Assembly (NCBI GenBank): GCA_964019135.1
Contig: OZ025256.1
Coordinates: forward strand, 14,639,911 to 14,703,910
Direction: 5' to 3'
From: Arenicola marina
Lineage: Eukaryota; Annelida; Polychaeta; Arenicolidae
Length of the DNA stretch: 64,000 bases
Part shown: positions 30,501-64,000 of the stretch, piece by piece
How the letters are laid out: every line of letters starts with the position of its first letter
How positions within the stretch are numbered: the stretch's first letter is position 1
Program-made: the position numbers and the translations under genes
The notes under the pieces: model-generated
Database searches by the model: none
Seen by the model: the letters and a program-made list of their open reading frames with translations, nothing else
Told to the model about the DNA's origin: nothing

Positions 30501-30769
30501 ATGGCTTTAGCGGAGGTCGAACGTGCAAAGAGATTTAAACTTTACAAAAACGGAGACAGAAAGTATTTGGGCAAAGAATTCGTGTTGAATAGACGCCGCA
30601 TAAGGACTTGGGATGCCTTCTTGCAAGCTGTGACATCGGACGTGAAAGCCAGTGAAGCAATCCGTTCCATTCGCACACCGAATGGTGGGACGAAAGTTGG
30701 AAATCTCGATGACCTCGAAGACAGTTGTACTTATGTTGCCGTTGGCGCTGGGACTTTTAAGAAGGCAGG
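30501..30769 (+). CDS. DCDC2: DCDC2 exon 1 (doublecortin domain 1)
   Basis: Encodes MALAEVERAKRF and most of the first doublecortin domain up to GTFKKAG. Donor gtaagt, phase 2 out. The frame is open upstream, but no in-frame ATG precedes this one closely. Confidence 0.9.
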
Positions 30770-42700: not shown

Positions 42701-45700
42701 TTTTATTGATGGTTCCCTATCCCCGCCCCCCCCCCCCAACAAAAAAAACACACTCCCGCGTGGCTTGATCTAATAAGCGTGGGGGTGGTAATGGGAAGGG
42801 GGGGGGGGGGGGTTGACGTGTCGGCATCGGAACCAGTTGGCGCTGGTGAGGCGGTGTCATTAAATCGGAGTTTGATGCCAGTCTGTTCCGAAGGGCACGC
42901 TGAAGGCAGGAGGGAAAAGCAGCGCTGACCCCCCCCCCCCCCCATGTGTAATGGCCAGCGCACTAGACCGCAGACCAATGTCTGGGGTTCGAACCCAGGT
43001 TCGGCCACCTAATCTTGAGCTTGAGGTTCCTTGGTCGAGTTGAGCCCTTGTGTGCACAGAAATCCTAATATACCAATTCATTCGTTACTGATCGAATAAG
43101 TCGCGCCCGGTCGGCCATCGTGATGGAGTGCGGTGGTTCTCACACCACGCAACCGAGACCGTCAGTCACATGTGAGTCTGATGGTGCTTACATCATTGAC
43201 AAATTAAACATCCAAATCCATTCACCTTCGGAAGGAGTTTGGGTTTGAAGGGAGCCGGCAGCTTGGCATCTAATGCTGCTATACCTATTCATATATCACT
43301 GACCTTCGTAAGGTAGATGGATCACACTGACGGGGTGAAACATGACCCGTACGTAAGGTAGATGGATCACACTGACGGGGTGAAACATGACCCGTTCGTA
43401 AGGTAGATGGATCACACTCACGGGGAGAAACATGACCCGTTCGTAAGGTAGATGGATCACACTGACGGGGTGAAACATCACCAATTCGTAAGGTAGATGG
43501 ATCACACTGACGGGGTGAAACATGACCCGTACGTAAGGTAGATGGATCACACTGACGGGGTGAAACATGACCCGTTCGTAAGGTAGATGGATCACACTGA
43601 CGGGGTGAAACATGACCCGTACGTAAGGTAGATGGATCACACTGACGGGGTGAAACATGACCCGTACGTAAGGTAGATGGATCACACTGACGGGGTGAAA
43701 CATCACCAATTCGTAAGGTAGATGGATCACACTGACGGGGTGAAACATGACCCGTACGTAAGGTAGATGGATCACGCTGACGGGGGGAAACATGACCCGT
43801 ACGTAAGGTAGATGGATCACACTGACGGGGCGAAACATGACCCGTTCGTAAGGTAGATGGATCACACTGACGGGGTGAAACATGACCCGTACGTAAGGTA
43901 GATGGATCACGCTGACGGGGGGAAACATGACCCGTACGTAAGGTAGATGGATCACGCTGACGGGGGGAAACATGACCCGTACGTAAGGTAGATGGATCAC
44001 ACTGACGGGGCGAAACATGACCCGTTCGTAAGGTAGATGGATCACACTGACGGGGTGAAACATGACCCGTTCGTAAGGTAGATGGATCACACTGACGGGG
44101 TGAAACATCACCAATTCGTAAGGTAGATGGATCACACTGACGGGGGGAAACATGACCCGTTCGTAAGGTAGATGGATCACACTGACGGGGTGAAACATGA
44201 CCCGTTCGTAAGGTAGATGGATCACACTGACGGGGTGAAACATGACCCGTTCGTAAGGTAGATGGATCACACTGACGGGGTGAAACATCACCAGTTCGTA
44301 AGGTAGATGGATCACACTGACGGGGTGAAACATGACCCGTACGTAAGGTAGATGGATCACGCTGACGGGGGGAAACATGACCCGTACGTAAGGTAGATGG
44401 ATCACACTGACGGGGCGAAACATGACCCGTTCGTAAGGTAGATGGATCACACTGACGGGGTGAAACATGACCCGTACGTAAGGTAGATGGATCACGCTGA
44501 CGGGGGGAAACATGACCCGTACGTAAGGTAGATGGATCACGCTGACGGGGGGAAACATGACCCGTACGTAAGGTAGATGGATCACACTGACGGGGCGAAA
44601 CATGACCCGTTCGTAAGGTAGATGGATCACACTGACGGGGTGAAACATGACCCGTTCGTAAGGTAGATGGATCACACTGACGGGGTGAAACATCACCAAT
44701 TCGTAAGGTAGATGGATCACACTGACGGGGGGAAACATGACCCGTTCGTAAGGTAGATGGATCACACTGACGGGGTGAAACATGACCCGTTCGTAAGGTA
44801 GATGGATCACACTGACGGGGCGAAACATGACCCGTTCGTAAGGTAGATGGATCACACTGACGGGGGGAAACATGACCCGTACGTAAGGTAGATGGATCAC
44901 ACTGACGGGGGGAAACATGACCCGTACGTAAGGTAGATGGATCACACTGACGGGGCGAAACATGACCCGTTCGTAAGGTAGATGGATCACACTGACGGGG
45001 TGAAACATGACCCGTTCGTAAGGTAGATGGATCACACTGACGGGGCGAAACATGACCCGTTCGTAAGGTAGATGGATCACACTGACGGGGGGAAACATGA
45101 CCCGTACGTAAGGTAGATGGATCACACTGACGGGGGGAAACATGACCCGTACGTAAGGTAGATGGATCACACTGACGGGGCGAAACATGACCCGTTCGTA
45201 AGGTAGATGGATCACACTGACGGGGTGAAACATGACCCGTTCGTAAGGTAGATGGATCACACTGACGGGGTGAAACATGACCCATTCGTAAGGTAGATGG
45301 ATCACACTGACGGGGTGAAACATGACCCGTTCGTAAGGTAGATGGATCACACTGACGGGGTGAAACATGACCCGTTCGTAAGGTAGATGGATCACACTGA
45401 CGGGGTGAAACATCACCAATTCGTAAGGTAGATGGATCACACTGACGGGGTGAAACATGACCCATTCGTAAGGTAGATGGATCACACTCACGGGGTGAAA
45501 CATGACCCGTTCGTAAGGTAGATGGATCACACTGACGGGGTGAAACATGACCCGTTCCTAAGGTAGATGGATCACACTGAAGGGGTGAAACATGATCCGT
45601 TCGTAAGGTAGATGGATCACACTGAAGGGGTGAAACATGATCCGTTCGTAAGGTAGATGGATCACACTGACGGGGTGAAACATGACCCGTTCGTAAGGTA

Positions 45701-48700
45701 GATGGATCACACTGATGGGGTGAAACATGACCCGTTCGTAAGGTAGATGGATCACACTGACGGGGTGAAACATGACCCGTTCGTAAGGTAGATGGATCAC
45801 ACTGACGGGGTGAAACATGACCCGTTCGTAAGGTAGATGGATCACACTGACGGGGTGAAACATGACCCGTTCGTAAGGTAGATGGATCACACTGACGGGG
45901 TGAAACATGATCCGTTCGTAAGGTAGATGGATCACACTGACGGGGCGAAACATGACCCGTTCGTAAGGTAGATGGATCACACTGAAGGGGTGAAACATGA
46001 TCCGTTCGTAAGGTAGATGGATCACACTGAAGGGGTGAAACATGATCCGTTCGTAAGGTAGATGGATCACACTGACGGGGTGAAACATGACCCGTTCGTA
46101 AGGTAGATGGATCACACTGACGGGGTGAAACATGACCCGTTCGTAAGGTAGATGGATCACACTCACGGGGTGAAACATGACCCGTTCGTAAGGTAGATGG
46201 ATCACACTGACGGGGTGAAACATGACCCGTACGTAAGGTAGATGGATCACACTGACGGGGTGAAACATGACCCGTTCGTAAGGTAGATGGATCACACTGA
46301 CGGGGTGAAACATGACCCGTTCGTAAGGTAGATGGATCACACAGACGGGGTGAAACATGACCCGTTCGTAAGGTAGATGGATCACACTCACGGGGTGAAA
46401 CATGATCCGTTCGTAAGGTAGATGGATCACACTCACGGGGAGAAACATGACCCGTTCGTAAGGTAGATGGATCACACTGATGGGGTGAAACATGACCCGT
46501 TCGTAAGGTAGATGGATCACACTGACGGGGTGAAACATGACCCGTTCGTAAGGTAGATGGATCACGCTGACGGGGTGAAACGTGACCCGTTCGTAAGGTA
46601 GATGGATCACACTGACGGGGTGAAACATGACCCGTTCGTAAGGTAGATGGATCACACTGACGGGGTGAAACATGACCCGTTCGTAAGGTAGATGGATCAC
46701 ACTGACGGGGTGAAACATAACCCGTTCGTAAGGTAGATGGATCACACTGACGGGGTGAAACATGACCCGTTCGTAAGGTAGATGGATCACACTGATGGGG
46801 TGAAACATGACCCGTTCCTAAGGTAGATGGATCACACTGAAGGGGTGAAACATGATCCGTTCGTAAGGTAGATGGATCACACTGAAGGGGTGAAACATGA
46901 TCCGTTCGTAAGGTAGATGGATCACACTGACGGGGTGAAACATGACCCGTTCGTAAGGTAGATGGATCACACTGACGGGGTGAAACATGACCCGTTCGTA
47001 AGGTAGATGGATCACACTGACGGGGTGAAACATGACCCGTTCGTAAGGTAGATGGATCACACTGACGGGGTGAAACATGACCCGTTCGTAAGGTAGATGG
47101 ATCACACTGACGGGGTGAAACATGACCCGTTCGTAAGGTAGATGGATCACACTGACGGGGTGAAACATGATCCGTTCGTAAGGTAGATGGATCACACTGA
47201 CGGGGCGAAACATGACCCGTTCGTAAGGTAGATGGATCACACTGAAGGGGTGAAACATGATCCGTTCGTAAGGTAGATGGATCACACTGAAGGGGTGAAA
47301 CATGATCCGTTCGTAAGGTAGATGGATCACACTGACGGGGTGAAACATGACCCGTTCGTAAGGTAGATGGATCACACTGACGGGGTGAAACATGACCCGT
47401 TCGTAAGGTAGATGGATCACACTCACGGGGTGAAACATGACCCGTTCGTAAGGTAGATGGATCACACTGACGGGGTGAAACATGACCCGTACGTAAGGTA
47501 GATGGATCACACTGACGGGGTGAAACATGACCCGTTCGTAAGGTAGATGGATCACACTGACGGGGTGAAACATGACCCGTTCGTAAGGTAGATGGATCAC
47601 ACAGACGGGGTGAAACATGACCCGTTCGTAAGGTAGATGGATCACACTCACGGGGTGAAACATGATCCGTTCGTAAGGTAGATGGATCACACTCACGGGG
47701 AGAAACATGACCCGTTCGTAAGGTAGATGGATCACACTGATGGGGTGAAACATGACCCGTTCGTAAGGTAGATGGATCACACTGACGGGGTGAAACATGA
47801 CCCGTTCGTAAGGTAGATGGATCACGCTGACGGGGTGAAACGTGACCCGTTCGTAAGGTAGATGGATCACACTGACGGGGTGAAACATGACCAATTCGTA
47901 AGGTAGATGGATCACACTGACGGGGTGAAACATAACCCGTTCGTAAGGTAGATGGATCACACTGACGGGGTGAAACATGACCCGTTCGTAAGGTAGATGG
48001 ATCACACTGACGGGGAGAAACATGACCCGTTCGTAAGGTAGATGGATCACACAGACGGGGTGAAACATGACCCGTTCGTAAGGTAGATGGATCACACTCA
48101 CGGGGTGAAACATGATCCGTTCGTAAGGTAGATGGATCACACTCACGGGGAGAAACATGATCCGCTCGTAAGGTAGATGGATCACACTGACGGGGTGAAA
48201 CATGACCCGTTCGTAAGGTAGATGGATCACACTGACGGGGTGAAACATGACCCGTTCGTAAGGTAGATGGATCACACTCACGGGGTGAAACATGACCCGT
48301 TCGTAAGGTAGATGGATCACACTGACGGGGTGAAACATGACCCGTACGTAAGGTAGATGGATCACACTGACGGGGTGAAACATGACCCGTTCGTAAGGTA
48401 GATGGATCACACTGACGGGGTGAAACATGACCCGTTCGTAAGGTAGATGGATCACACAGACGGGGTGAAACATGACCCGTTCGTAAGGTAGATGGATCAC
48501 ACTCACGGGGTGAAACATGATCCGTTCGTAAGGTAGATGGATCACACTCACGGGGAGAAACATGACCCGTTCGTAAGGTACATGGATCACACTGACGGGG
48601 TGAAACATGACCCGTTCGTAAGGTAGATGGATCACACTGACGGGGCGAAACATGACCCGTTCGTAAGGTAGATGGATCACACTGAAGGGGTGAAACATGA

Positions 48701-51700
48701 TCCGTTCGTAAGGTAGATGGATCACACTGAAGGGGTGAAACATGATCCGTTCGTAAGGTAGATGGATCACACTGACGGGGTGAAACATGACCCGTTCGTA
48801 AGGTAGATGGATCACACTGACGGGGTGAAACATGACCCGTTCGTAAGGTAGATGGATCACACAGACGGGGTGAAACATGACCCGTTCGTAAGGTAGATGG
48901 ATCACACTCACGGGGTGAAACATGATCCGTTCGTAAGGTAGATGGATCACACTCACGGGGAGAAACATGACCCGTTCGTAAGGTAGATGGATCACACTGA
49001 CGGGGTGAAACATGACCCGTTCGTAAGGTAGATGGATCACACTGAAGGGGTGAAACATGATCCGTTCGTAAGGTAGATGGATCACACTGAAGGGGTGAAA
49101 CATGACCCGTTCGTAAGGTAGATGGATCACACTGACGGGGTGAAACATGACCCGTTCGTAAGGTAGATGGATCACACTGACGGGGTGAAACATGACCCGT
49201 TCGTAAGGTAGATGGATCACACTCACGGGGTGAAACATGATCCGTTCGTAAGGTAGATGGATCACACTGACGGGGTGAAACATGACCCGTTCGTAAGGTA
49301 GATGGATCACACTGATGGGGTGAAACATGACCCGTTCGTAAGGTAGATGGATCACACTGACGGGGTGAAACATGACCCGTTCGTAAGGTAGATGGATCAC
49401 GCTGACGGGGTGAAACGTGACTTGTTCGTAAGGTAGATGGATCACACTGACGGGGCGAAACATGACCCGTTCGTAAGGTAGATGGATCACACTGACGGGG
49501 GGAAACATGACCCGTACGTAAGGTAGATGGATCACACTGACGGGGGGAAACATGACCCGTACGTAAGGTAGATGGATCACACTGACGGGGCGAAACATGA
49601 CCCGTTCGTAAGGTAGATGGATCACACTGACGGGGTGAAACATGACCCGTTCGTAAGGTAGATGGATCACACTGACGGGGCGAAACATGACCCGTTCGTA
49701 AGGTAGATGGATCACACTGACGGGGGGAAACATGACCCGTACGTAAGGTAGATGGATCACACTGACGGGGGGAAACATGACCCGTACGTAAGGTAGATGG
49801 ATCACACTGACGGGGCGAAACATGACCCGTTCGTAAGGTAGATGGATCACACTGACGGGGTGAAACATGACCCGTTCGTAAGGTAGATGGATCACACTGA
49901 CGGGGTGAAACATGACCCATTCGTAAGGTAGATGGATCACACTGACGGGGTGAAACATGACCCGTTCGTAAGGTAGATGGATCACACTGACGGGGTGAAA
50001 CATGACCCGTTCGTAAGGTAGATGGATCACACTGACGGGGTGAAACATCACCAATTCGTAAGGTAGATGGATCACACTGACGGGGTGAAACATGACCCAT
50101 TCGTAAGGTAGATGGATCACACTCACGGGGTGAAACATGACCCGTTCGTAAGGTAGATGGATCACACTGACGGGGTGAAACATGACCCGTTCCTAAGGTA
50201 GATGGATCACACTGAAGGGGTGAAACATGATCCGTTCGTAAGGTAGATGGATCACACTGAAGGGGTGAAACATGATCCGTTCGTAAGGTAGATGGATCAC
50301 ACTGACGGGGTGAAACATGACCCGTTCGTAAGGTAGATGGATCACACTGATGGGGTGAAACATGACCCGTTCGTAAGGTAGATGGATCACACTGACGGGG
50401 TGAAACATGACCCGTTCGTAAGGTAGATGGATCACACTGACGGGGTGAAACATGACCCGTTCGTAAGGTAGATGGATCACACTGACGGGGTGAAACATGA
50501 CCCGTTCGTAAGGTAGATGGATCACACTGACGGGGTGAAACATGATCCGTTCGTAAGGTAGATGGATCACACTGACGGGGCGAAACATGACCCGTTCGTA
50601 AGGTAGATGGATCACACTGAAGGGGTGAAACATGATCCGTTCGTAAGGTAGATGGATCACACTGAAGGGGTGAAACATGATCCGTTCGTAAGGTAGATGG
50701 ATCACACTGACGGGGTGAAACATGACCCGTTCGTAAGGTAGATGGATCACACTGACGGGGTGAAACATGACCCGTTCGTAAGGTAGATGGATCACACTCA
50801 CGGGGTGAAACATGACCCGTTCGTAAGGTAGATGGATCACACTGACGGGGTGAAACATGACCCGTACGTAAGGTAGATGGATCACACTGACGGGGTGAAA
50901 CATGACCCGTTCGTAAGGTAGATGGATCACACTGACGGGGTGAAACATGACCCGTTCGTAAGGTAGATGGATCACACAGACGGGGTGAAACATGACCCGT
51001 TCGTAAGGTAGATGGATCACACTCACGGGGTGAAACATGATCCGTTCGTAAGGTAGATGGATCACACTCACGGGGAGAAACATGACCCGTTCGTAAGGTA
51101 GATGGATCACACTGATGGGGTGAAACATGACCCGTTCGTAAGGTAGATGGATCACACTGACGGGGTGAAACATGACCCGTTCGTAAGGTAGATGGATCAC
51201 GCTGACGGGGTGAAACGTGACCCGTTCGTAAGGTAGATGGATCACACTGACGGGGTGAAACATGACCCGTTCGTAAGGTAGATGGATCACACTGACGGGG
51301 TGAAACATGACCCGTTCGTAAGGTAGATGGATCACACTGACGGGGTGAAACATAACCCGTTCGTAAGGTAGATGGATCACACTGACGGGGTGAAACATGA
51401 CCCGTTCGTAAGGTAGATGGATCACACTGATGGGGTGAAACATGACCCGTTCCTAAGGTAGATGGATCACACTGAAGGGGTGAAACATGATCCGTTCGTA
51501 AGGTAGATGGATCACACTGAAGGGGTGAAACATGATCCGTTCGTAAGGTAGATGGATCACACTGACGGGGTGAAACATGACCCGTTCGTAAGGTAGATGG
51601 ATCACACTGACGGGGTGAAACATGACCCGTTCGTAAGGTAGATGGATCACACTGACGGGGTGAAACATGACCCGTTCGTAAGGTAGATGGATCACACTGA

Positions 51701-54700
51701 CGGGGTGAAACATGACCCGTTCGTAAGGTAGATGGATCACACTGACGGGGTGAAACATGACCCGTTCGTAAGGTAGATGGATCACACTGACGGGGTGAAA
51801 CATGATCCGTTCGTAAGGTAGATGGATCACACTGACGGGGCGAAACATGACCCGTTCGTAAGGTAGATGGATCACACTGAAGGGGTGAAACATGATCCGT
51901 TCGTAAGGTAGATGGATCACACTGAAGGGGTGAAACATGATCCGTTCGTAAGGTAGATGGATCACACTGACGGGGTGAAACATGACCCGTTCGTAAGGTA
52001 GATGGATCACACTGACGGGGTGAAACATGACCCGTTCGTAAGGTAGATGGATCACACTCACGGGGTGAAACATGACCCGTTCGTAAGGTAGATGGATCAC
52101 ACTGACGGGGTGAAACATGACCCGTACGTAAGGTAGATGGATCACACTGACGGGGTGAAACATGACCCGTTCGTAAGGTAGATGGATCACACTGACGGGG
52201 TGAAACATGACCCGTTCGTAAGGTAGATGGATCACACAGACGGGGTGAAACATGACCCGTTCGTAAGGTAGATGGATCACACTCACGGGGTGAAACATGA
52301 TCCGTTCGTAAGGTAGATGGATCACACTCACGGGGAGAAACATGACCCGTTCGTAAGGTAGATGGATCACACTGATGGGGTGAAACATGACCCGTTCGTA
52401 AGGTAGATGGATCACACTGACGGGGTGAAACATGACCCGTTCGTAAGGTAGATGGATCACGCTGACGGGGTGAAACGTGACCCGTTCGTAAGGTAGATGG
52501 ATCACACTGACGGGGTGAAACATGACCAATTCGTAAGGTAGATGGATCACACTGACGGGGTGAAACATAACCCGTTCGTAAGGTAGATGGATCACACTGA
52601 CGGGGTGAAACATGACCCGTTCGTAAGGTAGATGGATCACACTGACGGGGAGAAACATGACCCGTTCGTAAGGTAGATGGATCACACAGACGGGGTGAAA
52701 CATGACCCGTTCGTAAGGTAGATGGATCACACTCACGGGGTGAAACATGATCCGTTCGTAAGGTAGATGGATCACACTCACGGGGAGAAACATGATCCGC
52801 TCGTAAGGTAGATGGATCACACTGACGGGGTGAAACATGACCCGTTCGTAAGGTAGATGGATCACACTGACGGGGTGAAACATGACCCGTTCGTAAGGTA
52901 GATGGATCACACTCACGGGGTGAAACATGACCCGTTCGTAAGGTAGATGGATCACACTGACGGGGTGAAACATGACCCGTACGTAAGGTAGATGGATCAC
53001 ACTGACGGGGTGAAACATGACCCGTTCGTAAGGTAGATGGATCACACTGACGGGGTGAAACATGACCCGTTCGTAAGGTAGATGGATCACACAGACGGGG
53101 TGAAACATGACCCGTTCGTAAGGTAGATGGATCACACTCACGGGGTGAAACATGATCCGTTCGTAAGGTAGATGGATCACACTCACGGGGAGAAACATGA
53201 CCCGTTCGTAAGGTACATGGATCACACTGACGGGGTGAAACATGACCCGTTCGTAAGGTAGATGGATCACACTGACGGGGCGAAACATGACCCGTTCGTA
53301 AGGTAGATGGATCACACTGAAGGGGTGAAACATGATCCGTTCGTAAGGTAGATGGATCACACTGAAGGGGTGAAACATGATCCGTTCGTAAGGTAGATGG
53401 ATCACACTGACGGGGTGAAACATGACCCGTTCGTAAGGTAGATGGATCACACTGACGGGGTGAAACATGACCCGTTCGTAAGGTAGATGGATCACACAGA
53501 CGGGGTGAAACATGACCCGTTCGTAAGGTAGATGGATCACACTCACGGGGTGAAACATGATCCGTTCGTAAGGTAGATGGATCACACTCACGGGGAGAAA
53601 CATGACCCGTTCGTAAGGTAGATGGATCACACTGACGGGGTGAAACATGACCCGTTCGTAAGGTAGATGGATCACACTGAAGGGGTGAAACATGATCCGT
53701 TCGTAAGGTAGATGGATCACACTGAAGGGGTGAAACATGACCCGTTCGTAAGGTAGATGGATCACACTGACGGGGTGAAACATGACCCGTTCGTAAGGTA
53801 GATGGATCACACTGACGGGGTGAAACATGACCCGTTCGTAAGGTAGATGGATCACACTCACGGGGTGAAACATGATCCGTTCGTAAGGTAGATGGATCAC
53901 ACTGACGGGGTGAAACATGACCCGTTCGTAAGGTAGATGGATCACACTGATGGGGTGAAACATGACCCGTTCGTAAGGTAGATGGATCACACTGACGGGG
54001 TGAAACATGACCCGTTCGTAAGGTAGATGGATCACGCTGACGGGGTGAAACGTGACTTGTTCGTAAGGTAGATGGATCACACTGACGGGGTGAACATGAC
54101 CAATTCGTAAGGTAGATGGATCACACTGACGGGGTGAAACATGACCCGTTCGTAAGGTAGATGAATCACACTGATGGGGTGAAACATGACCCGTTCGTAA
54201 GGTAGATGGATCACACTGACGGGGTGAAACATGACCCGTTCGTAAGGTAGATGGATCACACTGATGGGGTGAAACATGACCCGTTCGTAAGGTAGATGGA
54301 TCACACTGACGGGGTGAAACATGACCCGTTCGTAAGGTAGATGGATCACGCTGACGGGGTGAAACATGACCCGTTCGTAAGGTAGATGGATCACACTGAT
54401 GGGGTGAAACATGACCCGTTCGTAAGGTAGATGGATCACACTGACGGGGTGAAACATGACCCGTTCGTAAGGTAGATGGATCACACTGACGGGGTGAAAC
54501 ATGACCCGTTCGTAAGGTAGATGGATCACACTGATGGGGTGAAACATGACCCGTTCGTAAGGTAGATGGATCACACTGACGGGGTGAAACATGACCCGTT
54601 CGTAAGGTAGATGGATCACACTGACGGGGTGAAACATGACCCGTTCGTAAGGTAGATGGATCACACTGACGGGGTGAAACATGACCCGTTCGTAAGGTAG

Positions 54701-57700
54701 ATGGATCACACTGATGGGGTGAAACATGACCCGTTCGTAAGGTAGATGGATCACACTGACGGGGTGAAACATGACCCGTTCGTAAGGTAGATGGCTCACG
54801 CTGACGGGGTGAAACATGACCCGTTCTTAAGGTAGATGGATCACCCTGACGGGGTGAAACATGACCCGTTCTTAAGGTACATGGGTCACAGTGACGGGGT
54901 GAAACATGACCCGTTCGTAAGGTACATGGGTCACACTGACGGGGTGAAACATGACTCGTTCGTAAGGTAGATGGATCACGCTGACGGAGGGAAACATGAC
55001 CCCTACGTAAGGTAGATGGATCACACTGACGGGGTGAAACATGACCCGTTCGTAAGGTAGATGCGCTGCGGAAAACTTAGATCTATAGTATGCCGGCGAT
55101 GTGGAGTCTAATGTCGAAGAGTATAGCTGAATGGGTTGGTGTGTCGGTCTTGGACCAGGTTGCAATAGGAGCCACATCGCTGCGGCTCCGGCAACGAGTG
55201 CGTTCAGAAAGCCAAACCCTCCTAATTAACAATGAGTGGGCAGGTGCGTGGCAGTACAGGCTCCGCCTGTGTGGGCTTTTACCCGTCATTGAGAATAGTA
55301 TGGCTCGCCTTACCGGGTCCATATAGACTGGGAACAGTTATTCCCAGCCAAGCTGTGCTTGCTCGCCCGCCAGCTTGATTTTTAGCGGAAGATGTAATAT
55401 ATACACATTGAAGTGGCACGCGATCACTGGGTCCCGACATTCAACGCTCAAACCTGAAACACCACAGTGTCCTGGGGCCGTATTCATAATCGCCACTTAG
55501 GCTACTACACCACCAGACTTAGCTCTAAGTGGAAGATTTGTCAAGTGATTATCGGGTTCAAAATACATCAGTAGTCACCCAAAACGTGGATTTTCTTAAT
55601 TAAGAGTTAAAATTATATTGAAGACGATTTCTTGATCATGTGCACCACCACAACGAGCGGGTGAGGCTAAGATGAAAACGCACTTTTCGTGCGTAACTTA
55701 CGAGGGGATTATGAATACGGCCCCTGAACTCGCTTGTGCCCTCGAACCCTGGTCCCGGCACCATTCGGAGTAAGTTCTCCCAAACCCACTTCATGGTCCG
55801 GAGAGATTTCTGAACCCTGTTGAACCTTCATGGGCACAAAAGTGGCCGCAGCCGGACGGAAAAACATTGTTAAGTAAGTGTTACTAATCCCAACTGAGTG
55901 TTAAGTGAACATACCAGACTGATACGGTGGACCCGACTTCCAGTCTGTTTCGTCTTTTTTCGACAGCCATTTCTGGAGGTCCTGCGGAGACTGTGAGTGG
56001 TATTCATTAGATAATTGACACCCTAGGTCTGCCCCCCCCCCCCCACACACACACACCTTCCCCAGCCACCTTCGTCCCAGCTGTACATTTAACGTAATGC
56101 AGTAGTTACCATAGCCTTAACGGACTCGCCAATAACAACCCTCAATATCGCCTTGTTTTTTGTACGTCTACTTAGGGGCGAGTGACGGCGACTTAATACA
56201 CAGACCATACCAGCCCATTTCTTTGGGTTCACTTTGTCGTTGAGTCTATGCAGATTGGCTGGGACAGGGCAAAAATGCCCGCCCCGCCCCCCCCCCCCCC
56301 CCTCGAGGAATTCACGCAAAGTGCCGTCGAGGACTAGCCTACGCAGGTCCTCGACGGCACTTTATATGTATAAATACATGGCAAGCACGCTAGGCATTGT
56401 TGCTTAGGCCCTGTCATGTCGATAATTTTGTGCGGATTACTAGAATAAGAAGCTAACGACTAAGCTTAATAGTCTTGGTTTCAAATCCCGGGCCCTCCGA
56501 GCCCTCTTTCGGTGGCATCTTTTTGCGGGAACCTCTCTATACTAGCTCGTGTGGTAAGCAGGCAGAGCGGGAACCTATCTATACCAGCTCAGGTGGTAAG
56601 CAGGCAGAGCGGGAACCTCCCTATACCAGCTCAAGTGGTAAGCTGGCAGAGCGGGAAACTCCCTATACCAGCTCAAGTGGTAAGCTGGCAGAGCGGGAAC
56701 CTCCCTATACCAGCCCAAGTGGTAAGCTGGCAGAGCGGGAACCTCCCTATACCAGCTCAAGTGGTAAGCTGGCAGAGCGGGAACCTCCCTATACCAGCCC
56801 AAGTGGTAAGCTGGCAGAGCGGGAACTTCCCTATACTAGCTCAAGTGGTAAGCAGGCAGAGCGGGAACCTCCCTATACCAGCCCGAGTGGTAAGCTGGCA
56901 GAGCGGGAACCTCCTTATACTAGCTCAAGTGGTAAGCAGGCAGAGCGGGAACCTCCCTATACCAGCCCAAGTGGTAAGCAGGCACAGCGGGAACCTCCCT
57001 ATACCAGCCCAAGTGGTAAGCTGGCAGAGCGGGAACCTCCTTATACTAGCTCAAGTGGTAAGCAGGCAGAGCGGGAACCTCCTTATACCAGCTCAAGTGG
57101 TAAGCTGGCAGAGCGGGAACCTCCTTATACTAGCTCAAGTGGTAAGCAGGCAGAGCGGGAACCTCCCTATACCAGCCCGAGTGGTAAGCTGGCAGAGCGG
57201 GAACCTCCTTATACCAGCCCAAGTGGTAAGCTGGCAGAGCGGGAACCTCCTTATACTAGCTCAAGTGGTAAGCAGGCAGAGCGGGAACCTCCCTATACCA
57301 GCTCACGTGGTGAGCTGGCAGAGCGGGAACCTCCCTATACCAGCTCACATGGTAAGCTGGCAGAGCGGGAACCTCCCTATACCAGCTCAAGTGGTAAGCT
57401 GGCAGAACGGGAACCTCCCTATACCAGCCCGAGTGGTAAGCTGGCAGAGCGGGAACCTCCTTATACTAGCTCAAGTGGTAAGCAGGCAGAGCGGGAACCT
57501 CCCTATACCAGCCCAAGTGGTAAGCAGGCACAGCGGGAACCTCCCTATACCAGCCCAAGTGGTAAGCTGGCAGAGCGGGAACCTCCTTATACTAGCTCAA
57601 GTGGTAAGCAGGCAGAGCGGGAACCTCCCTATACCAGCTCACGTGGTGAGCTGGCAGAGCGGGAACCTCCCTATACCAGCTCACATGGTAAGCTGGCAGA

Positions 57701-60700
57701 GCGGGAACCTCCCTATACCAGCTCAAGTGGTAAGCAGGCAGAGCGGGAACCTCTCTATACCAGCTCAAGTGGTAAGCAGGCAGAGCGGGAACCTCCTTAT
57801 ACCAGCTCAAGTGGTAAGCAGGCAGAGCGGGAACCTCCTTATACCAGATCACGTGGTAAGCAGGCAGAGCGGGAACCTCTCTATACCAGCCCAAGTGGTA
57901 AGCTGGCAGAGCGGGACCTCCTTATACCAGCTCAAGTGGTAAGCAGGCAGAGCGGGAACCTCCTTATACCAGCCCAAGTGGTTAGCAGGCAGAGCGGGAA
58001 CCTCCTTATACCAGCCCAAGTGGTAAGCAGGCAGAGCGGGAACCTCCCCATACCAGCTCAAGGGGCCACGCCTCGCTTTTTTGTCAATAAAACCAGAATC
58101 TAGGAAATAAAATCTAGGAAATAAGGGAATCAGACTTGTTCGTGCAAAGTTCCACCACAAGTTAATTACAGTGATGCCGTCGACGTCCAAAAAAATGCCA
58201 TGTTACAGTTTATTGGCTTAATTCCCATTCCTTTAGTCTGCTTCGTCCGTGCGTCTATACTGTGATCGCCACCGCTACACCCTCCCCATAGGGTAGGCTT
58301 ATAGAATTTTGGCCTGTCATTATATTTTTGCTGTGCTGGATCGATGAGATCTATCATCATTATTCACCTCTCTCCTCCCGCTATCCTCCCCCCCCCCCCT
58401 CCTCCCTCGCCACCCTTGGTCCTCTCCTTCCTTCTCACGCACATCACTCTCTCCCCTACCTCTTCCCCACCATCTTCACCCCGCCTACCCCCCTTTACCC
58501 CCCACCCCCACCCTCCCTCCCGCCTCGTCCTCTCACCCCACATCCACCCCCATTCTGCCCCGAGCTGTAAGAGCCGCACATGGATCTCTCAGTGTCAATT
58601 GACAAGGGGGGGGGGGGGTGATGATGGTAGGGTAGAGGTGGGGGTGGGGTGGGGGGGCGGGTTTCTTGAGAACTTCTGGCTTCCGCTTGTGACGTCATCT
58701 TTTGTCGCCCCGCGGTGTACGCCCTGAGGTAGGAGAACGAGACACGTCTTGACGCTTTCGGAGGACAGGGGACGGAAGTGGGCGCGGGGGGGGGGGGGGG
58801 GGGGGGTACACGGGGAGGGGATGCGGATTAGGGCGATGGGAGCTTGCGAGTGCTGGGTGTTCGCGATGGCGGGTGGTTGGAAGCAAGTTGGCAAAGATGG
58901 AGAGAGTGGATGTGAATAGAGGGGGGTTGGGGGGATCATCCCACCCCGGGTGGGGGGTGGGGGAGGGGATCATCCCATCCCTTACTGCAGTGGTGGAGGG
59001 GTGTCGATGGAGCGGGACCTATATATGACATGTGGACATTGTGTTATGACATGTTTATGCGGATTGGGGGGGGGGAGGTGGGGGGGAGGTTGGTGTTAAT
59101 ATATACAGTTAGCATAGTTTCGTATTATGTGCAAGGGTTGATCCCTATCCGTGACTCCCCCTGAGCGACAGATACACGATACGAGACCCCGGGCCGATGT
59201 TAAACTTACCATCCCCCCGCCCTCCCCCCCCCCCCCACTCCCCTCATCATTCCGCCACTCCGGCCGCCTTGTCAACCCTTCGCGAGACCACCACCCCTTT
59301 AGTACCCTCAGCTATTCTGGGATCGTTTTACTGTGGCCATGCGTGTCGTTGCCATGGTATCGTGGGTCGGTGGGCGGGGGAGCGGTGTATGGAATGTTCC
59401 CGGCGAAACTTCTGGAGTTTTATACAGATTTGTCTTGTATTACTTGTAGTCAAGTTATTTTTTTTTTATTATTATTCATAACAGGTCATTTCCTCGCTAT
59501 GTCTGCTCATCCTTCTGATGTGGTATTTTTTAATCAATTCATTAATGAATCAACGACGTAAGAAATGACGTTGTCCATGTCGCCATTCCAAGCCACCCCG
59601 GTCATGGCGCCTCAGCGTTATTGACAACGGCACTCGCGCGCTGTCGCGTTGCTAGGCGCTCGGCGTCTTGTTGCTAGGATACATACCCGGCGCCAGCTGA
59701 ACCCACCCCAGGGCCAGCGGGGATCAATGACTACCAGCTGATACCCCGGGCTGTGTAACCTGTGATCTATGATACAGGGAATGACAGGTCTTCCTCCTTC
59801 CTTACCTGTGTGTCTTGCCCCTGATATGGAGATTACAGCCTGGGTCTCATCAGCGCCTCCAGCCACAGGCGTTACACGAGCCTCTGTAAAGATTTGACGG
59901 CAGGGGGTGCACGTGACTTTAGGGGCGCGGCGAGGGGCCATTGTGTTCGCCATTGTCGCTGTGGCCAATAAGGGATAGTGTTTGTCTCGCTGTGCATTGT
60001 GGGAGACGCGCCGAATACTGGGACCCGTGACAAACCGCGTAAACTTGCAACTTTGGCGTGTTGCGGCGGCACCCAATTTTTGTCCATGGCGCTTTGCTTT
60101 GTGGAGGAATCCTTGCCCACCTCTGGCCCCCGGTTAACCACGCCACTGGCTGGCTGGTTGTGTACAACGAACGGGCTGCTGGAATAGTTAGTCGTTTTAT
60201 AGCTACTTGTCTGGTGATGCAGCCAGACATCTGGTTACGCTGGGAATTGGCTTGTCGCTTAGACACTGGATGTTATTTATAACTAACTGGGTTATCGTAT
60301 AGCTAACTGGATGTTAGCATAGCTATCTGGCTATTTATATGGCTATCTTGCTGATCGTGTAGATAACTGGCTGGTTATACACGTACGGCTAGCTAGCTGT
60401 TTGATTAGCTATACATGTATGCCTGGTTGTGTATCCAACATGGTGGTTGTATAGCTAATAGGCTACTTCTGTAGATAACAGGCTCGCTGCACAGCTAACT
60501 GACTCGTTTGAGAACCACAGTTTTAAGGCAAGATGAACCACGTGGAATATTGGGATCACCAGAGTCTGTCGGTGAGGAGGCACGGGGGCCTCAATTTCAA
60601 CAACACGGCCGTTCTGCAGTTGAACGGGACTCTCCGAAGACGCTCGAATCGACCACCCCCTGTAAGGGTGCAGCAGAGTATACCTGAATTTGTGTCAGTT

Positions 60701-63632
60701 TTTTAGGAAGTATTCTTCCTCCTCCGTGGCAGATAGCATCTGTTTGGGGGGGTGGGGGGGTGGGGGGGGATCTTTCAGGTGGAAAAAAGTGGGTGGAAAA
60801 AAGTGCCGTTCTGGTGTTCTATAGGTCATCAAACTCCGGGTATCATCGACGCAATTGCCAGAAACCCGAATCATATACTGAGCCGTCAACCGACATTGCT
60901 CCTGTAGTTCATGGGGTTTCTGGGATGGTACTAAACGCATCTCTCATGGCCATCATGCCGGCCATGTGTGCGTTAAAGTCGCCTAAAACCCCCATTCCAT
61001 AGATCCGCCCATCTGTCCTTCGTTCCGCTGCTCGGGGAATGAATTATTGATAACGCGCTTTGTGAGCAATCCACCTTATATAACGACGATGCCAGTGGCT
61101 CGTTAGGGTCGTCGTCAGAACCTATGTATGCATGTTGTATGTAAACTACATCGCATGTACATGTCATTATAATACAGGTGCGACCCCTGGAACACCGCCG
61201 ACTGCAAGTGTCCGGCCGTATCCGCAAAGTGCCTGTAGATGTCATCAGCATATTGTAAGTACCGAACACCCATTCGTTGTAGTCATTGGATTTAGTCTGC
61301 TACCGCGTCTAAGTTTTATTATTATCATTAATGTTGTTATCAGTAGTATTATCTTAAATAATATTATTACTATTGTTTATATTATTATTATTATTGCGTT
61401 TATCATTATTTTTATGATTGTGATAATAATAATAATAATCATCATCATTATTGTTAATACTATTATTATTGCGTATTCTAATATTTTCTAATGATTATTA
61501 TTATTATTATTATTGTATTACTAATATTAATATGATGATTATTGCTGGACAAATGGTCGAATTCCCGGGCGGCCGCTGTCGCAGATTCTCATGAAATACA
61601 CATGATCCAGTTAGAAACTCGTACTGCGATATGGTCGTTAGAATTATTCGGTGCCACACGATTGAGCGTGTGACGATAGCAGCGAATGCTGGTTTTAACT
61701 CTTAATCTCTATCCTCGTGTTTACGGCATGTCATTATGCCCTAAGAACACTCGAATTATTTTTATGTCTATTAATTATTCATAGCGTTTGTCATGACTCA
61801 TTGAAACAAATGTCTGGGAAAACCAATATGTTGGTTGCAATCAGACAAGCCTACACCTGGTAACTGTCTGCATTGGCGTACTCTGGGGTATTATTTGGTC
61901 CACTGGCGTACACGTGTTTACATTGGCGTACACTTGTTTACACTGGTGTACACTTGTTTACACTGGCGTACACTTGTTTACGCTGGCGTACACTTCTTTA
62001 CACTGGCGTACACTTCTTTACGCTGACATACACTGTCTGGTGTAGACTGAAGTACACTGGACTACGCTGGGCTACGCTAACACATGTACAATGGCACACG
62101 CAGCCGCGCACTGACATACACTGGCATACGGTGACGTACACGGACATACACTGACGGACACTGACATTCAATGACGTACACTGACATTCAATGACGTACA
62201 CTAACATACAATGACGTACACTGACATACAATGACGTACACTGACATACAATGACGTACAGTGACACACAATGACGTACACTGACATACACTGACGTATA
62301 CTGACATACAATGACGTACAGTGACATACAATAACGTACACTGACATACAATGACGTACAGTGACACACAATGACGTATACTGACATACAATGACGTACA
62401 GTGACGTACAATGACGGACACTGACATTCAATGCCGTACACTGACATACAATGACGTACAGTGACGTACAATGACGTACAGTGACGTACAATGACGGACA
62501 CTGACATTCAATGCCGTACACTGACATACAATGACGTACAGTGACGTACAATGACGTACACTGATATACAATGCCGTACACCATCATACAACGCCGTACA
62601 CTGTCGTACACTCCCTGTCGTTGCAGTGTGTACGCCAACGGCAAGGAGCTGGAGCCGGCCCGCCGGGTGACCTTGACCCGCTCCATGCTGCGCAGCTGGG
62701 AATCGATCCTCGGACAAATCACGGAGAAGGTTAACCTGACCTCTGGCGCCGCCAGGCGGTAAGTTGAAAGCGGCGTGTCCCTCGTGGTCTTCTGTGCTTC
62801 ATGTGCAGCCTGAAGGCTGAGTTTAGGGGCCTCCTTGGTGTAGTGGTTAGCGTACTAGATCCTCGGGCCTCCCTGGTGTAGTGGTTAGCGCACTAGACCG
62901 CAGATCAATAGGTCCTGGGGGCCTCCCTGTTGTAGTGGTTAGCGCACTAGATCCTCGGGCCTCCCTGTTGTAGTGGTTAGCGTACTAGATCCTCGGGCCT
63001 CCTTGGTGTAGTGGTTAGCGCACTAGACCGCAGATCAATAGGTCCTGGGGGCCTCCCTGTTGTAGTGGTTAGCGTACTAGATCCTCGGGCCTCCTTGGTG
63101 TAGTGGTTAGCGTACTAGACCGCAGATCAATAGGTCCTGGGGGCCTCCCTGGTGTAGTGGTTAGCGCACTTGACCGTACATCAATAGGTCCTGGTGGCCT
63201 CCCTGGTGTAGTGGTTAGCGCACTAGACCGCAGATCAAGCCTCCCATCATTTATCGTCCGCCGCGATTCCTTCGCCCAGCTTATAATATAGCCCTGAAGT
63301 AGTGCACAAGTGCGACCTAAACACCCAACTCCTTTCATGTCGAAGCATTGATTTGGTACATACTGACAACCAATGTGATATGACGGTGGTTCCTTGTGCA
63401 AAAGTTGCCTTAAACACCATTTCTTGGCACACACAACTATGGCGTAAACCCGGAGCATGCCTTCGTGTCCTTGCAGGCTGTACACAGTGGAGGGACATCT
63501 GGTGGCCGACCCCAGCCTGCTCAAGACCAGTGACCACTACGTGGCGGTCGGGGCCGACGTAGGGGGCTTCAAGCGACTCGAGTATGGCGTCCAGAAACCG
63601 GCCTTCAACAGCTCACCCAAGCAACCGCGCAG
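30501..63632 (+). CDS. DCDC2: DCDC2-like doublecortin-domain protein, 5' six exons (gene continues beyond window)
   Basis: Six exons (30501-30769, 37381-37447, 60533-60661, 61178-61254, 62627-62758, 63477-63632) join with matching phases to give 276 complete codons; the last donor is phase 2, so more exons lie to the right. Doublecortin domain 1 covers about residues 8-95 (YKNGDRKYLGKEFVLNRR, YVAVGAGTFKK, YLTIEE). Domain 2 covers about 178-268 (VYANGKELEPARRVTL, ILGQITEKVNLTSGAARR, LYTVEGHLV, HYVAVGAD, FKRLEYG). The ITEKxxLxSGAxxRLYTxEG stretch and the spacing of the domains match human DCDC2 rather than doublecortin itself. Doublecortin domains bind microtubules; DCDC2 localises to primary cilia, and the X-box upstream agrees. 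The ATG has a good context (AACATGG). Intron 2 is about 23 kb and is mostly tandem repeat. Exon 3 is the least certain. Confidence 0.88.
31203..31218. repeat. Poly(dG) tract
   Basis: A long G-run (about 15 bases) in DCDC2 intron 1. The rest of intron 1 from 30770 to 33880 is AT-rich with no recognised gene. Confidence 0.6.
33880..34110 (+). repeat. tRNA-derived SINE-like copy
   Basis: B-box-like GGGGTTCGAATCACACC, followed by a body with CCCGGAGACATG and CCATTGTCGCGATGTCACC. The same body signature occurs in the copies at about 36430 and 38265, so the three form one family. Confidence 0.5.
34545..34645 (+). repeat. G-rich tract with quadruplex potential
   Basis: A nearly pure G/A stretch with many G-runs of four or more, in DCDC2 intron 1. 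Confidence 0.7.
35322..35385 (+). repeat. (GGTGAT)n microsatellite
   Basis: Imperfect GGTGAT/GGTGGC hexamers, followed by a G-run at 35407 and a second G-run at 35525. Confidence 0.8.
36011..36410 (+). repeat. Dispersed repeat, copy A of inverted pair
   Basis: Runs from CTCTTGCCGTCGACTCAC to CCACCGTGCGGG. It is about 400 bp and is found inverted at 38982-39345. Its interior includes GCCAGGGCGGCGCTGCGC and AGCAGCGGTAAAAGCGGAGC. It lies in intron 1, upstream of DCDC2 exon 2. Confidence 0.85.
36430..36690 (+). repeat. tRNA-derived SINE
   Basis: The head CCGGTAGCTCAGCGGGTTAG is a near-perfect tRNA A-box region. The body holds CGGGGACATGGCTCC and a GCGATATGACC block. The tail is AACTAACCAACCAAC. 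It belongs to the same family as 33880 and 38265. Confidence 0.7.
36855..37075 (+). repeat. Tandem array of tRNA-like 5' halves (4 units of about 54 bp)
   Basis: Each unit reads GCCTCnnTGGTGTAGTGGTT, then AGCGCACTAGACCGCAGATC and a GGCCCT-type end. The A-box-like TGGTGTAGTGGTTAGCGC is intact in all units, but no unit carries a B-box. It lies in intron 1 just upstream of exon 2. Confidence 0.85.
37381..37447 (+). CDS. DCDC2: DCDC2 exon 2
   Basis: A 67-nt exon with acceptor gtcgcttcag and donor gtaagt, phases 2 in and 0 out. It encodes YLTIEESLAKLQKSPRAHQ and GPG. The start corresponds to the human KKLNYLDIGEI junction. It is flanked by inverted copies of a roughly 400-bp repeat. Confidence 0.85.
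37800..37875 (+). repeat. Single tRNA-like SINE head
   Basis: GGCCTCCATGGTCTAGTGG followed by GGGTTCGGATTCGGGTC. It is related to the tandem tRNA-like units but keeps a B-box-like part. Confidence 0.55.
38265..38520 (+). repeat. SINE-like copy
   Basis: Contains GGTTCGATCGCCGCATGGGC, TCTCCCGGAGACACGG and CCATTGTGGCGAGATGACC, the body signature of the family at 33880 and 36430. Confidence 0.5.
38982..39345 (-). repeat. Dispersed repeat, copy B (inverted relative to copy A)
   Basis: The reverse complement matches 36011-36410 from end to end with scattered differences. It lies in intron 2, downstream of DCDC2 exon 2, about 2.6 kb from copy A. Confidence 0.85.
39813..40037 (-). other. Unassigned minus-strand open frame
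   Basis: About 74 codons from an ATG at 40037, with coding-like peptide (RRKIRRVVWDLAHNTLSC, then LVELDNIHTGDLRGRLF) ending in FVEV. The composition is less biased than the neighbouring G/C tracts. No family recognised. It lies inside DCDC2 intron 2 on the opposite strand and could be a mobile-element or gene fragment. Confidence 0.25.
40525..40905 (+). repeat. G-rich VNTR with GGACCACCTGACCAGG blocks
   Basis: Irregular units of TGGACCACCTGACCAGGGAG and AACCTGGGGGG, followed by GGCAGGGAGGTGGGAAGG. The unit length varies because of G-run length. Quadruplex-prone. Confidence 0.85.
41275..41420. repeat. Short repeat bounded by a G-run and a C-run, copy 1
   Basis: A core of about 111 bp (TTGACGTGTCGGCATCGGAA to AGCAGCGCTGAC) lies between a dG tract and a dC tract. 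A second copy lies at 42798-42942. Confidence 0.85.
42038..42376 (-). mobile_element. Non-LTR retrotransposon (LINE) ORF2 C-terminal fragment
   Basis: A 112-codon minus-strand frame contains CICGAPREETTNYFPRCPMH, followed by SRDTLLPSI. This is the C-x-C-G-A-x-x-E-T ... C-P ... R-x-x-L-L pattern found near the C-terminus of many LINE reverse-transcriptase proteins. No reverse transcriptase or endonuclease domain lies upstream in the window, so it is a 5'-truncated copy. The exact clade is not assigned. Confidence 0.7.
42798..42942. repeat. Short repeat bounded by a G-run and a C-run, copy 2
   Basis: Same core as 41291-41401, in the same orientation, differing mainly by a 4-base insertion after GATGCC. 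It is directly followed by a tRNA-like segment. Confidence 0.85.
42943..43015 (+). repeat. tRNA-like SINE head with B-box
   Basis: AGCGCACTAGACCGCAGACC followed by GGGGTTCGAACCCAGG. It resembles the tandem 54-bp units but keeps the B-box region. Confidence 0.55.
44805..49439 (+). repeat. Higher-order copy 1 (4635 bp = 103 units) within the 45-bp array
   Basis: Diagnostic variants, such as the rare TTCCTAAGG units at about 45555 and 46815 and the ACTTG variant at its right end, recur exactly 4635 bp later. Confidence 0.85.
49440..54074 (+). repeat. Higher-order copy 2 (4635 bp = 103 units) within the 45-bp array
   Basis: It repeats the variant order of 44805-49439 in every diagnostic position I compared. 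Inside each copy there is also a 1260-bp (28-unit) sub-repeat, for example 45558 versus 46818. Confidence 0.85.
55064..56520. other. Intron-2 spacer between the two large arrays
   Basis: No gene recognised. It holds the Harbinger-like MITE at 55475-55723, dC tracts at 56034 and 56287, and a short inverted repeat of GTGCCGTCGAGGAC / GTCCTCGACGGCAC at about 56321 and 56347. Confidence 0.5.
55475..55723. mobile_element. PIF/Harbinger-like MITE, 249 bp, with CTG target duplication
   Basis: The ends GGGCCGTATTCATAATC and GATTATGAATACGGCCC are perfect 17-bp inverted repeats. CTG flanks both sides (55472-55474 and 55724-55726). The 3-bp duplication and GGGCC-type ends suit PIF/Harbinger. No coding capacity. 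Confidence 0.85.
56527..58062 (+). repeat. 1.5-kb minisatellite array, 42-bp unit, about 36 copies
   Basis: The unit is GGGAACCTCCCTATACCAGC followed by TCAAGTGGTAAGCTGGCAGA and GC. It is open in several frames (for example REPPYTSSSGKLAE) because 42 is divisible by three. Register slips near 57915. Each unit carries GTGGTAAGC on the sense strand. It lies in DCDC2 intron 2. Confidence 0.97.
58100..59560. other. Intron-2 sequence with C/T- and G-rich tracts
   Basis: Pyrimidine-rich 58380-58560, G-runs at 58605, 58790 and 59065, and a C-run at 59218. No exon recognised. A near X-box, GTTGCCATGGTATC, lies at about 59348-59361. Confidence 0.5.
59580..60130. promoter_or_regulatory. CpG-rich segment, possible internal promoter of DCDC2
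   Basis: GC- and CpG-rich compared with its surroundings. It has two GTTGCTAGG half X-box motifs (about 59647 and 59669), a GGCCAATAAGG CCAAT-type site (about 59963) and, on the minus strand, a ZNF143-like CCCACAATGCAC. It lies 0.4-1 kb upstream of exon 3, which begins exactly with ATG. Promoter function is inference. Confidence 0.35.
60275..60515 (+). repeat. Degenerate TAGCTAACTGG tandem repeat
   Basis: Imperfect units of about 25-30 bp built on TATAGCTAACTGG / TAGATAACTGGC, directly upstream of DCDC2 exon 3. Confidence 0.7.
60533..60661 (+). CDS. DCDC2: DCDC2 exon 3 (interdomain linker)
   Basis: 43 codons, phase 0 to 0, encoding MNHVEYWDHQSLSVRRHGG and a basic Asn/Arg/Pro-rich linker. 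Donor gtaagg. The acceptor TTTTAAGGCAAG is pyrimidine-poor, and the exon starts exactly at ATG. It may therefore instead be the first coding exon of a short isoform made from an internal promoter. Confidence 0.65.
61178..61254 (+). CDS. DCDC2: DCDC2 exon 4
   Basis: Encodes VRPLEHRRLQVSGRIRKV, then PVDVISI, corresponding to the human stretch before the second domain (INVSARFRKPLQ). Acceptor ataatacag, donor gtaagt. Phases 0 in and 2 out. Confidence 0.8.
61312..61545 (+). repeat. (ATT)n/(ATC)n microsatellite
   Basis: Long imperfect ATT/ATC trinucleotide tract just after DCDC2 exon 4. Confidence 0.9.
61873..62040 (+). repeat. Minisatellite, 20-bp unit TGGCGTACACTTGTTTACAC
   Basis: About eight units in DCDC2 intron 4. 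It grades into the TGACGTACA array that follows, so both probably share an origin. Confidence 0.9.
62041..62618 (+). repeat. Minisatellite with 10-bp core TGACGTACAC
   Basis: Units of TGACATACAATGACGTACAC alternate in 10- and 20-bp steps for nearly 580 bp and stop about 8 bp before the acceptor of exon 5. The unit contains TGACG, a CREB/ATF half-site, dozens of times. Confidence 0.95.
62627..62758 (+). CDS. DCDC2: DCDC2 exon 5 (doublecortin domain 2, first half)
   Basis: Encodes VYANGKELEPARRVTLTR and the following helix up to SGAARR. Acceptor ctgtcgttgcag, donor gtaagt, phases 2 and 2. The acceptor directly follows the TGACGTACA repeat array. Confidence 0.93.
62828..63237 (+). repeat. Tandem array of tRNA-like 5' halves (9 units, two lengths)
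   Basis: Units start GCCTCCYTGKTGTAGTGGTT and come in a long form (about 54 bp, through ATCAATAGGTCCTGGGG) and a short form (about 38 bp, ending TAGATCCTCGG). The A-box-like part is kept in all nine and no B-box is present. It lies in DCDC2 intron 5 and is related to 36855-37075. Confidence 0.92.
63477..63632 (+). CDS. DCDC2: DCDC2 exon 6 (doublecortin domain 2, second half)
   Basis: Encodes LYTVEGHLVADPSLLK, HYVAVGADVGGFKRLEYG and a tail ending SSPKQPR. Donor CGCAG|gtaaga, phase 2 out. This donor is the first copy of a 33-bp tandem array. Confidence 0.92.
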
Positions 63633-63920
63633 GTAAGAGGGCAATCACCATGGCAACCGCGCAGGTAAGAGCGCAATCACCCCTGGCAACCGCGCAGGTA
63701 AGAGCGCAATCACCCATGGCAACCGCGCAGGTAAGAGCGCAATCACCCCTGGCAACCGCGCAGGTAAGAGCGCAATCACCCATGGCAACCACGCAGGTAA
63801 GAGCGCAATCACCCATGGCAACCACGCAGGTAAGAGCGCAATCACCCATGGCAACCACGCAGGTAAGAGCGCAATCACCCATGGCAACCGCGCAGGTAAG
63901 AGCGCAATCACCGCTAGCAA
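63622..63920 (+). repeat. 33-bp minisatellite that includes the exon 6 donor site (9 units)
   Basis: The unit CAACCGCGCAGGTAAGAG, plus a 15-base remainder, starts inside exon 6 and repeats at 63622, 63654, 63687, 63720, 63753, 63786, 63819, 63852 and 63885. Each has the donor CGCAG|GTAAGAG (the 63786, 63819 and 63852 units have CACGCAG). The first unit is 32 bp, the rest 33 bp. Confidence 0.97.
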
Positions 63921-64000
63921 CCGCACTAATAAGCACGGCACTGCACAGCAACCGGCTTTGATGCAAAACAGATTCCAGTTCCCTGTCTGCGTGTGTGAGT

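Follow-up and report, generated by a model that had tools for sequence, protein, structure and literature searches.

Tandem repeats that run across an exon–intron boundary and repeat its splice signals are known from amphioxus, where they are called mirages; in the parts of the published accounts drawn on here they are described for Adh3, troponin C, the globins BflGb6 and BflGb9, and PGBD5. In human ABCA7, a 25-bp variable number tandem repeat (VNTR) in intron 18 is reported to start with the donor of exon 18 and to repeat its unit at least 12 times; splicing sometimes occurs at the donor one unit into the array, with an out-of-frame product, and is said to be affected by array length. The 31-bp VNTR of human CBS, c.1444_1467+7(16_21), has, as its notation shows, a unit of 24 exonic plus 7 intronic nt, present 16–21 times. 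Here we describe a 33-bp minisatellite across the donor junction of a DCDC2-like exon in a 64,000-nucleotide stretch of Arenicola marina contig OZ025256.1 (the window, to which coordinates refer unless stated otherwise), together with arrays of the same layout at other exons of this genome.

The DCDC2-like array shares with the amphioxus mirages a boundary-spanning unit in which a splice signal is repeated (Adh3 units are given as 10–72 bp). It differs from them in that their host is a cephalochordate, their globin units measure 150–160 bp, and both donor-side and acceptor-side forms are known; length and somatic instability are also reported for mirages, whereas here one assembly copy was read. 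Like our array, the ABCA7 VNTR starts at the donor of an exon and repeats it, but it is described as starting at the GT, with no exonic part stated in that description, and it is polymorphic with RNA evidence of altered splicing. The CBS layout, as its notation is published, is nearly that of the DCDC2-like array, with polymorphism measured in CBS. A mirage in the strict, cephalochordate sense was rejected, as the mitochondrial tRNA order and a globin match of this genome are annelid-like. The kinship with mirages proposed in the initial annotation therefore stands for the junction-spanning layout and falls for an amphioxus mirage proper, and the CBS and ABCA7 VNTRs are equally close. One annelid paper reports minisatellites inside metallothionein introns, with junction-spanning units not described in the part consulted, and our literature search found no report of junction-spanning donor arrays in annelids. 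The DCDC2-like locus joins a known kind of structure; what it adds is that the layout recurs across conserved genes within a single annelid genome.

The features that make up the junction are as follows.

63477–63632, plus strand: 156-nt exon for the latter half of the second DCX domain, phase 2 end (Pfam, PDB, sequence).
63613–63924, plus strand: 33-bp minisatellite across the exon–intron junction (Tandem Repeats Finder, TRF).
63633–63638, plus strand: first donor, GTAAGA, the sole one of nine that keeps the frame open (sequence).
63665–63901, plus strand: span of eight further identical donors, each leaving AGG-TAA in the mRNA.
63665, 63698, 63731, 63764, 63797, 63830, 63863 and 63896, plus strand: intron starts of these eight donors.
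About 63909–63930 (end approximate), plus strand: decayed tenth copy, donor lost (CGCACTAATAAG; sequence).

The minisatellite (9.5 copies, 95% matches, TRF score 540) holds nine exact copies of CGCAGGTAAGAG across exon|intron junctions, the first of which is the exon's own donor. They lie at 63632, 63664, 63697, 63730, 63763, 63796, 63829, 63862 and 63895, spaced by 32 nt once and by 33 nt thereafter, and the signal is lost in copy 10. Chance is excluded by the distribution of the 12-mer CGCAG|GTAAGAG, since 9 of its 31 matches in the 867 Mb genome fall here, within 275 bp. The predicted duplex energy with the U1 5′ end is the same for all nine donors (−11.0 kcal/mol). That nine identical donors follow one another at the exon end, and that the unit spans the junction itself, had both been claimed beforehand and agree with what we find. 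The last 20 nt of the exon form the exonic part of unit 1, which continues with 12 intronic nt before the next copy; later units have 13 intronic nt. Unit 1 deviates from the others in two places, the AAGC/TGGC stretch of its exonic part and position +8 of the intron. The exonic share is 12 nt ungapped and about 20 nt with a one-base gap. Divergence is greatest in the first and last copies of the array, which fits the expectation of tandem turnover.

The identity of the exon rests on several matches. Its acceptor is TTGCAG|G at 63477, and when it is joined in silico to the exon at 62627–62758 the product reads as one DCX domain. The open frame across the exon matches Pfam DCX at 2e-5, and in PDB, at E up to 1, it matches human DCDC2 alone (2dnf, E = 0.0037). 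Homology to DCX/DCDC2 reaches the junction at 63632 and the frame closes 2 nt beyond it, strongly suggesting that the coding exon ends at the first copy of the repeat. A DCDC2 C-terminal-like stretch, found with a human sequence as the query, lies at about 70743–70898 in coordinates of the window plus L041, ~7 kb 3′ of the array. Taken together with the immediate closure of the frame, this implies that only the first of the nine donors could give a full-length protein. The label DCDC2 exon 6 given to this exon at the outset is borne out as to a DCDC2-like DCX exon (Pfam, 2dnf) and not as to the number, as our gene model comprises four placed exons and covers part of the gene.

Since the exon ends in phase 2, the genomic sequence reads AGG-TAA right past the junction, and all eight downstream donors would bring the same stop codon into the mRNA. 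The in-frame stop expected by the initial annotation is present for every one of them, but it is no special device: wherever GTAAG follows a phase-2 exon, the reading is AG|G-TAA.

To place this structure in the genome, we ran an exact-pattern search for two donors 12–42 nt apart, using four donor 9-mers and the same pattern backwards as a control. Forward and reversed matches numbered 2516 and 828 for CAGGTAAGT, 1321 and 548 for CAGGTAAGA, 643 and 329 for AAGGTAAGT, and 3547 and 1074 for CAGGTGAGT. As these matches count copies rather than arrays, the ratios overstate independence; counted as places among the matches listed, CAGGTAAGA gave 10 arrays (8 units) within some 114 Mb, compared with 17 reversed arrays within some 354 Mb. 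The 5′ boundaries of 42 donor arrays and 17 reversed-motif arrays among those listed were then taken. The 42 come from the three AGGTAAG-type 9-mer searches and an earlier listing, not from CAGGTGAGT, and exclude a simple repeat as well as two arrays that duplicate others in the set. Such a scan for junction arrays had been proposed beforehand, and it found others that begin on exons: for 11 of the 42, the exon at the array's start scored above the curated cut-off of a Pfam domain.

L052: Aldedh.
L058: PLU-1.
L059: ATP synthase gamma.
L061: sugar transporter family.
L063 and L064: nicotinic-type ligand-binding domain, with one common unit, 7.6 kb apart.
L087: OSR1_C; the array adjoins the exon, at donor ATG|GTAAGT, several units ahead of the found pair.
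L088: C2H2.
L099: 7tm_1.
L101: RING.
L108: UDPGP.

By extrapolation from Pfam-supported cases of the three AGGTAAG-type 9-mers, about 75 such exons would be expected genome-wide, a figure built on small counts (1 in 39.5 Mb, 5 in 114 Mb and 5 in 270 Mb). Below the cut-off, L097 matched E3_binding at 0.0014, and eight further boundaries (L057, L065, L066, L067, L089, L092, L106 and L107) are exon-like by eye and gave no Pfam match at 0.01. The remaining boundaries are non-coding, within larger arrays or of unsettled kind. One test frame of an unplaced locus matched Cohesin_HEAT at 2.8e-6; L089 did not match. The Pfam families of the test set are 25 of 40 listed; among its matches, DUF7324, EGF_LRP2, DUF7410, DUF4915 and Parecho_VpG were taken as repeat artefacts without further test, as were Aa-Ago_N (9e-5) and DUF6551 (8e-4) among the controls.

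In the Pfam-supported cases the array lies on the intron side. Besides DCDC2 there are 12 of them, the 11 listed and L083 from the reversed-motif set; a second copy fell within the stretch taken for 11 of these 12, and in those 11 the unit covers 14–35 nt of exon end (ungapped) together with the intron start. The RING exon is the clearest case, with 24 exonic and 6 intronic nt per unit. In the ATP synthase gamma case AAGATCATCTG is common to exon and intron, which would fit a duplication begun by short homology. In 10 of the 11 Pfam-supported exons the match comes within three residues of the array's first donor; as the peptides searched ended at that donor, no more can be read from this than that homology extends to it. 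For seven phase-0 cases the search was repeated on peptides that included the downstream copies. The match then ended 1–3 residues past the donor in L061, L099, L101 and L108; in L088, whose fingers end within the exon, it did not change. In the phase-2 cases the frame closes at once past the donor.

A long array begins on the ALDH exon (L010, L032, L052; C1:605784–609128 and on), with at least 86 units, mostly of 39 bp, and exact donor pairs that continue to 612276. AGGTAAG is kept at 69 of its 85 junctions. Among the 83 full-length units of the 86, donor columns were no better conserved than other non-CpG columns (Mann–Whitney P = 0.35), and the last exonic G is altered in 11 of the 83. Selection on the repeated donors is therefore unsupported by this test.

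Based on the anatomy of the DCDC2-like junction and its recurrence, we think it probable that the minisatellite was born at the splice junction, expanded into the intron and has been largely tolerated because the first donor is the one used. A tandem duplication with breakpoints about 20 nt inside the 3′ end of the exon and about 13 nt into the intron would have copied the exon tail together with its donor, after which slippage or unequal exchange could have added copies on the intron side. Throughout, the 5′-most copy would stay an intact exon tail with an intact donor. Splicing at this first donor would leave the protein unchanged and the extra copies would depart as intron, so that the array may be close to neutral. 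This genome is rich in minisatellites, and the ends of other exons show arrays of the same layout. Within 104 kb around the locus, 29 minisatellite arrays (units of 15–120 bp, at least 2.5 copies) occupy 27.5 kb, and if this density holds genome-wide there is no need to invoke an attraction of repeats to splice sites: a back-of-envelope estimate that assumes two hundred thousand donors, with some 20 nt of exon at risk, predicts about a thousand junctions hit by chance.

Several observations weigh against this account. Use of the first donor is deduced from sequence, and the assembly contains the DCDC2-like junction once, as a single length. The reported occasional use, in human ABCA7, of a donor one unit into the array means that complete neutrality cannot be taken for granted. 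The test of donor conservation is weak, covering one array. In the re-test, the Pfam match ran 20 residues past the donor in L052 (3.6 more bits) and 8 residues past it in L058 (2.5 more bits), and Pfam alone does not fix the exon end at these two loci. Lastly, the share of exons among donor arrays (11 of 42) does not differ significantly from that among the 17 reversed-motif arrays found with AGAATGGAC (1 of 17; Fisher P = 0.15). These 17 had been meant as exon-free controls, yet one of them, L083, is a Pfam-domain exon (FAT, 1.4e-11) with a repeated GTGAGT donor, and L070 resembles a TECR exon (TECR_N 0.0029, below the cut-off). The control shows that the layout is not bound to one motif, and it is no clean null.

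The array could instead act as a length-dependent regulator, in which leaky downstream donors yield stop-containing DCDC2 transcripts and more copies mean less productive mRNA; these transcripts would be degraded, or the protein cut after the second DCX domain. Predicted pairing with the U1 5′ end is as strong for the eight extra donors as for the real one, all eight would bring the stop, and there is human precedent in ABCA7 and in the 31-bp junction VNTR of CBS, for which the cited title reports reduced activity. We nevertheless regard regulation as unlikely: the stop comes automatically with a phase-2 exon and GTAAG, the one long array tested (ALDH) has no excess of donor conservation, and the amphioxus mirages are suggested not to disturb normal splicing. 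A broader and quite doubtful version would have donor-spanning minisatellites as a regular feature of this annelid genome, probably at dozens to hundreds of conserved-gene exons, and as a heritable, length-variable control of splicing; phase-2 sites would leak stop-bearing transcripts, and phase-0 sites with units divisible by three would leak in-frame peptide repeats. The Pfam-supported cases number 13 with DCDC2, of which four end in phase 2 and nine in phase 0 (L052, L058, L061, L083, L087, L088, L099, L101 and L108). Five of these nine have open units divisible by three (chance P = 0.14 for at least five; the units of L088, 45, and L083, 40, were taken from the array listings), and we do not claim an in-frame rule.

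Intron gain in progress, where tandem duplication of an exonic AGGT segment makes the donors (the Rogers model), appears very unlikely at this locus. Tandem AGGT duplication is a cited route and has been proposed for the amphioxus mirages, and by eye almost all of the unit at the ATP synthase gamma exon resembles exon. Tandem copies with AG|GT are common to both structures, but in the published cases the array becomes a whole new intron, whereas the DCDC2-like array appears to extend one end of an intron: it sits at the start of an intron that seems to run some 7 kb to the next recognised stretch, no exon was recognised directly after it in a search with human DCDC2 only, and its unit holds about 13 non-exonic nt. 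An artefact of assembly or annotation is barely credible. A single assembly is the basis of the analysis, but the units differ from one another in an ordered way, and arrays of differing sequence have the same layout at other genes.

The nine equal donors of the DCDC2-like gene and the at least 86 ALDH units provide a natural test of the spliceosome's choice between equivalent 5′ splice sites, as donor strength in such arrays is near constant and position varies. Should the first site always be used, position or the order of transcription would decide; should it not, the genes would carry length-variable switches like that of human ABCA7. Recurrence in an annelid extends a structure described, in the literature as consulted, from amphioxus and from single human genes, beside intron-gain cases in yeast and plants.

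The other placed features of the DCDC2-like gene in the window are these.

30501–30769, plus strand: first DCX-domain exon, with inferred start ATG at 30501 and donor CAGG|GTAAGT (Pfam DCX 1.8e-15; PDB doublecortin 1.4e-12).
62112–62603, plus strand: 20-bp minisatellite ending 23 nt before the exon at 62627, its unit without the acceptor (TRF, sequence).
62627–62758, plus strand: exon for the first half of the second DCX domain, with donor GCG|GTAAGT, phase 2 (sequence).

Between two DCX exons lies an 11.8-kb array (43305–55063; 45-bp unit, about 261 copies, 96% matches) whose minus strand has open frames of up to 3611 codons. At 36860–37066 and 62827–63238, a tRNA-like GGTGTAGTGGTTAGCGCACTAGA element occurs in tandem copies that look by eye like a multiplied piece of a tRNA-derived short interspersed nuclear element (SINE). 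The array at 56525–58062, with GTGGTAAGC in its unit, was considered as an exon array and rejected, its left flank being judged SINE-derived by eye. Further downstream, a 30/60-bp array at about 1707–2173 of L043 (85707–86173 of the window plus L041–L044) reads as a repeated acidic peptide, QSEAEVQADG; the region around it bears a weak similarity to the DCDC2 tail.

The annelid affinity of the genome is seen in its mitochondrial contig (C762, 15,942 bp), which gave 25 tRNA matches, three of them taken as spurious; all lie on one strand save two of those three. The sequence of genes, F E P T C M V L A S L I K S N D Y G Q W R H, is that of Lumbricus and other annelids. The closest matches listed for a globin exon of the C14 cluster are extracellular haemoglobins of the annelid kind.

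Two observations on kinase genes were made along the way. Small contigs C232, C330, C443, C465, C497, C504, C609, C652 and C684 (G000) carry kinase genes with in-frame TAA and/or TAG. Some ciliates read TAA/TAG as glutamine, and these contigs may possibly come from a contaminant or symbiont in the assembly. Of the 122 kinase-domain matches listed, 70 lie on C3 between 14.5 and 57.1 Mb (G000), most of similar length and with no internal stop; they form a large family, possibly of retrocopies.

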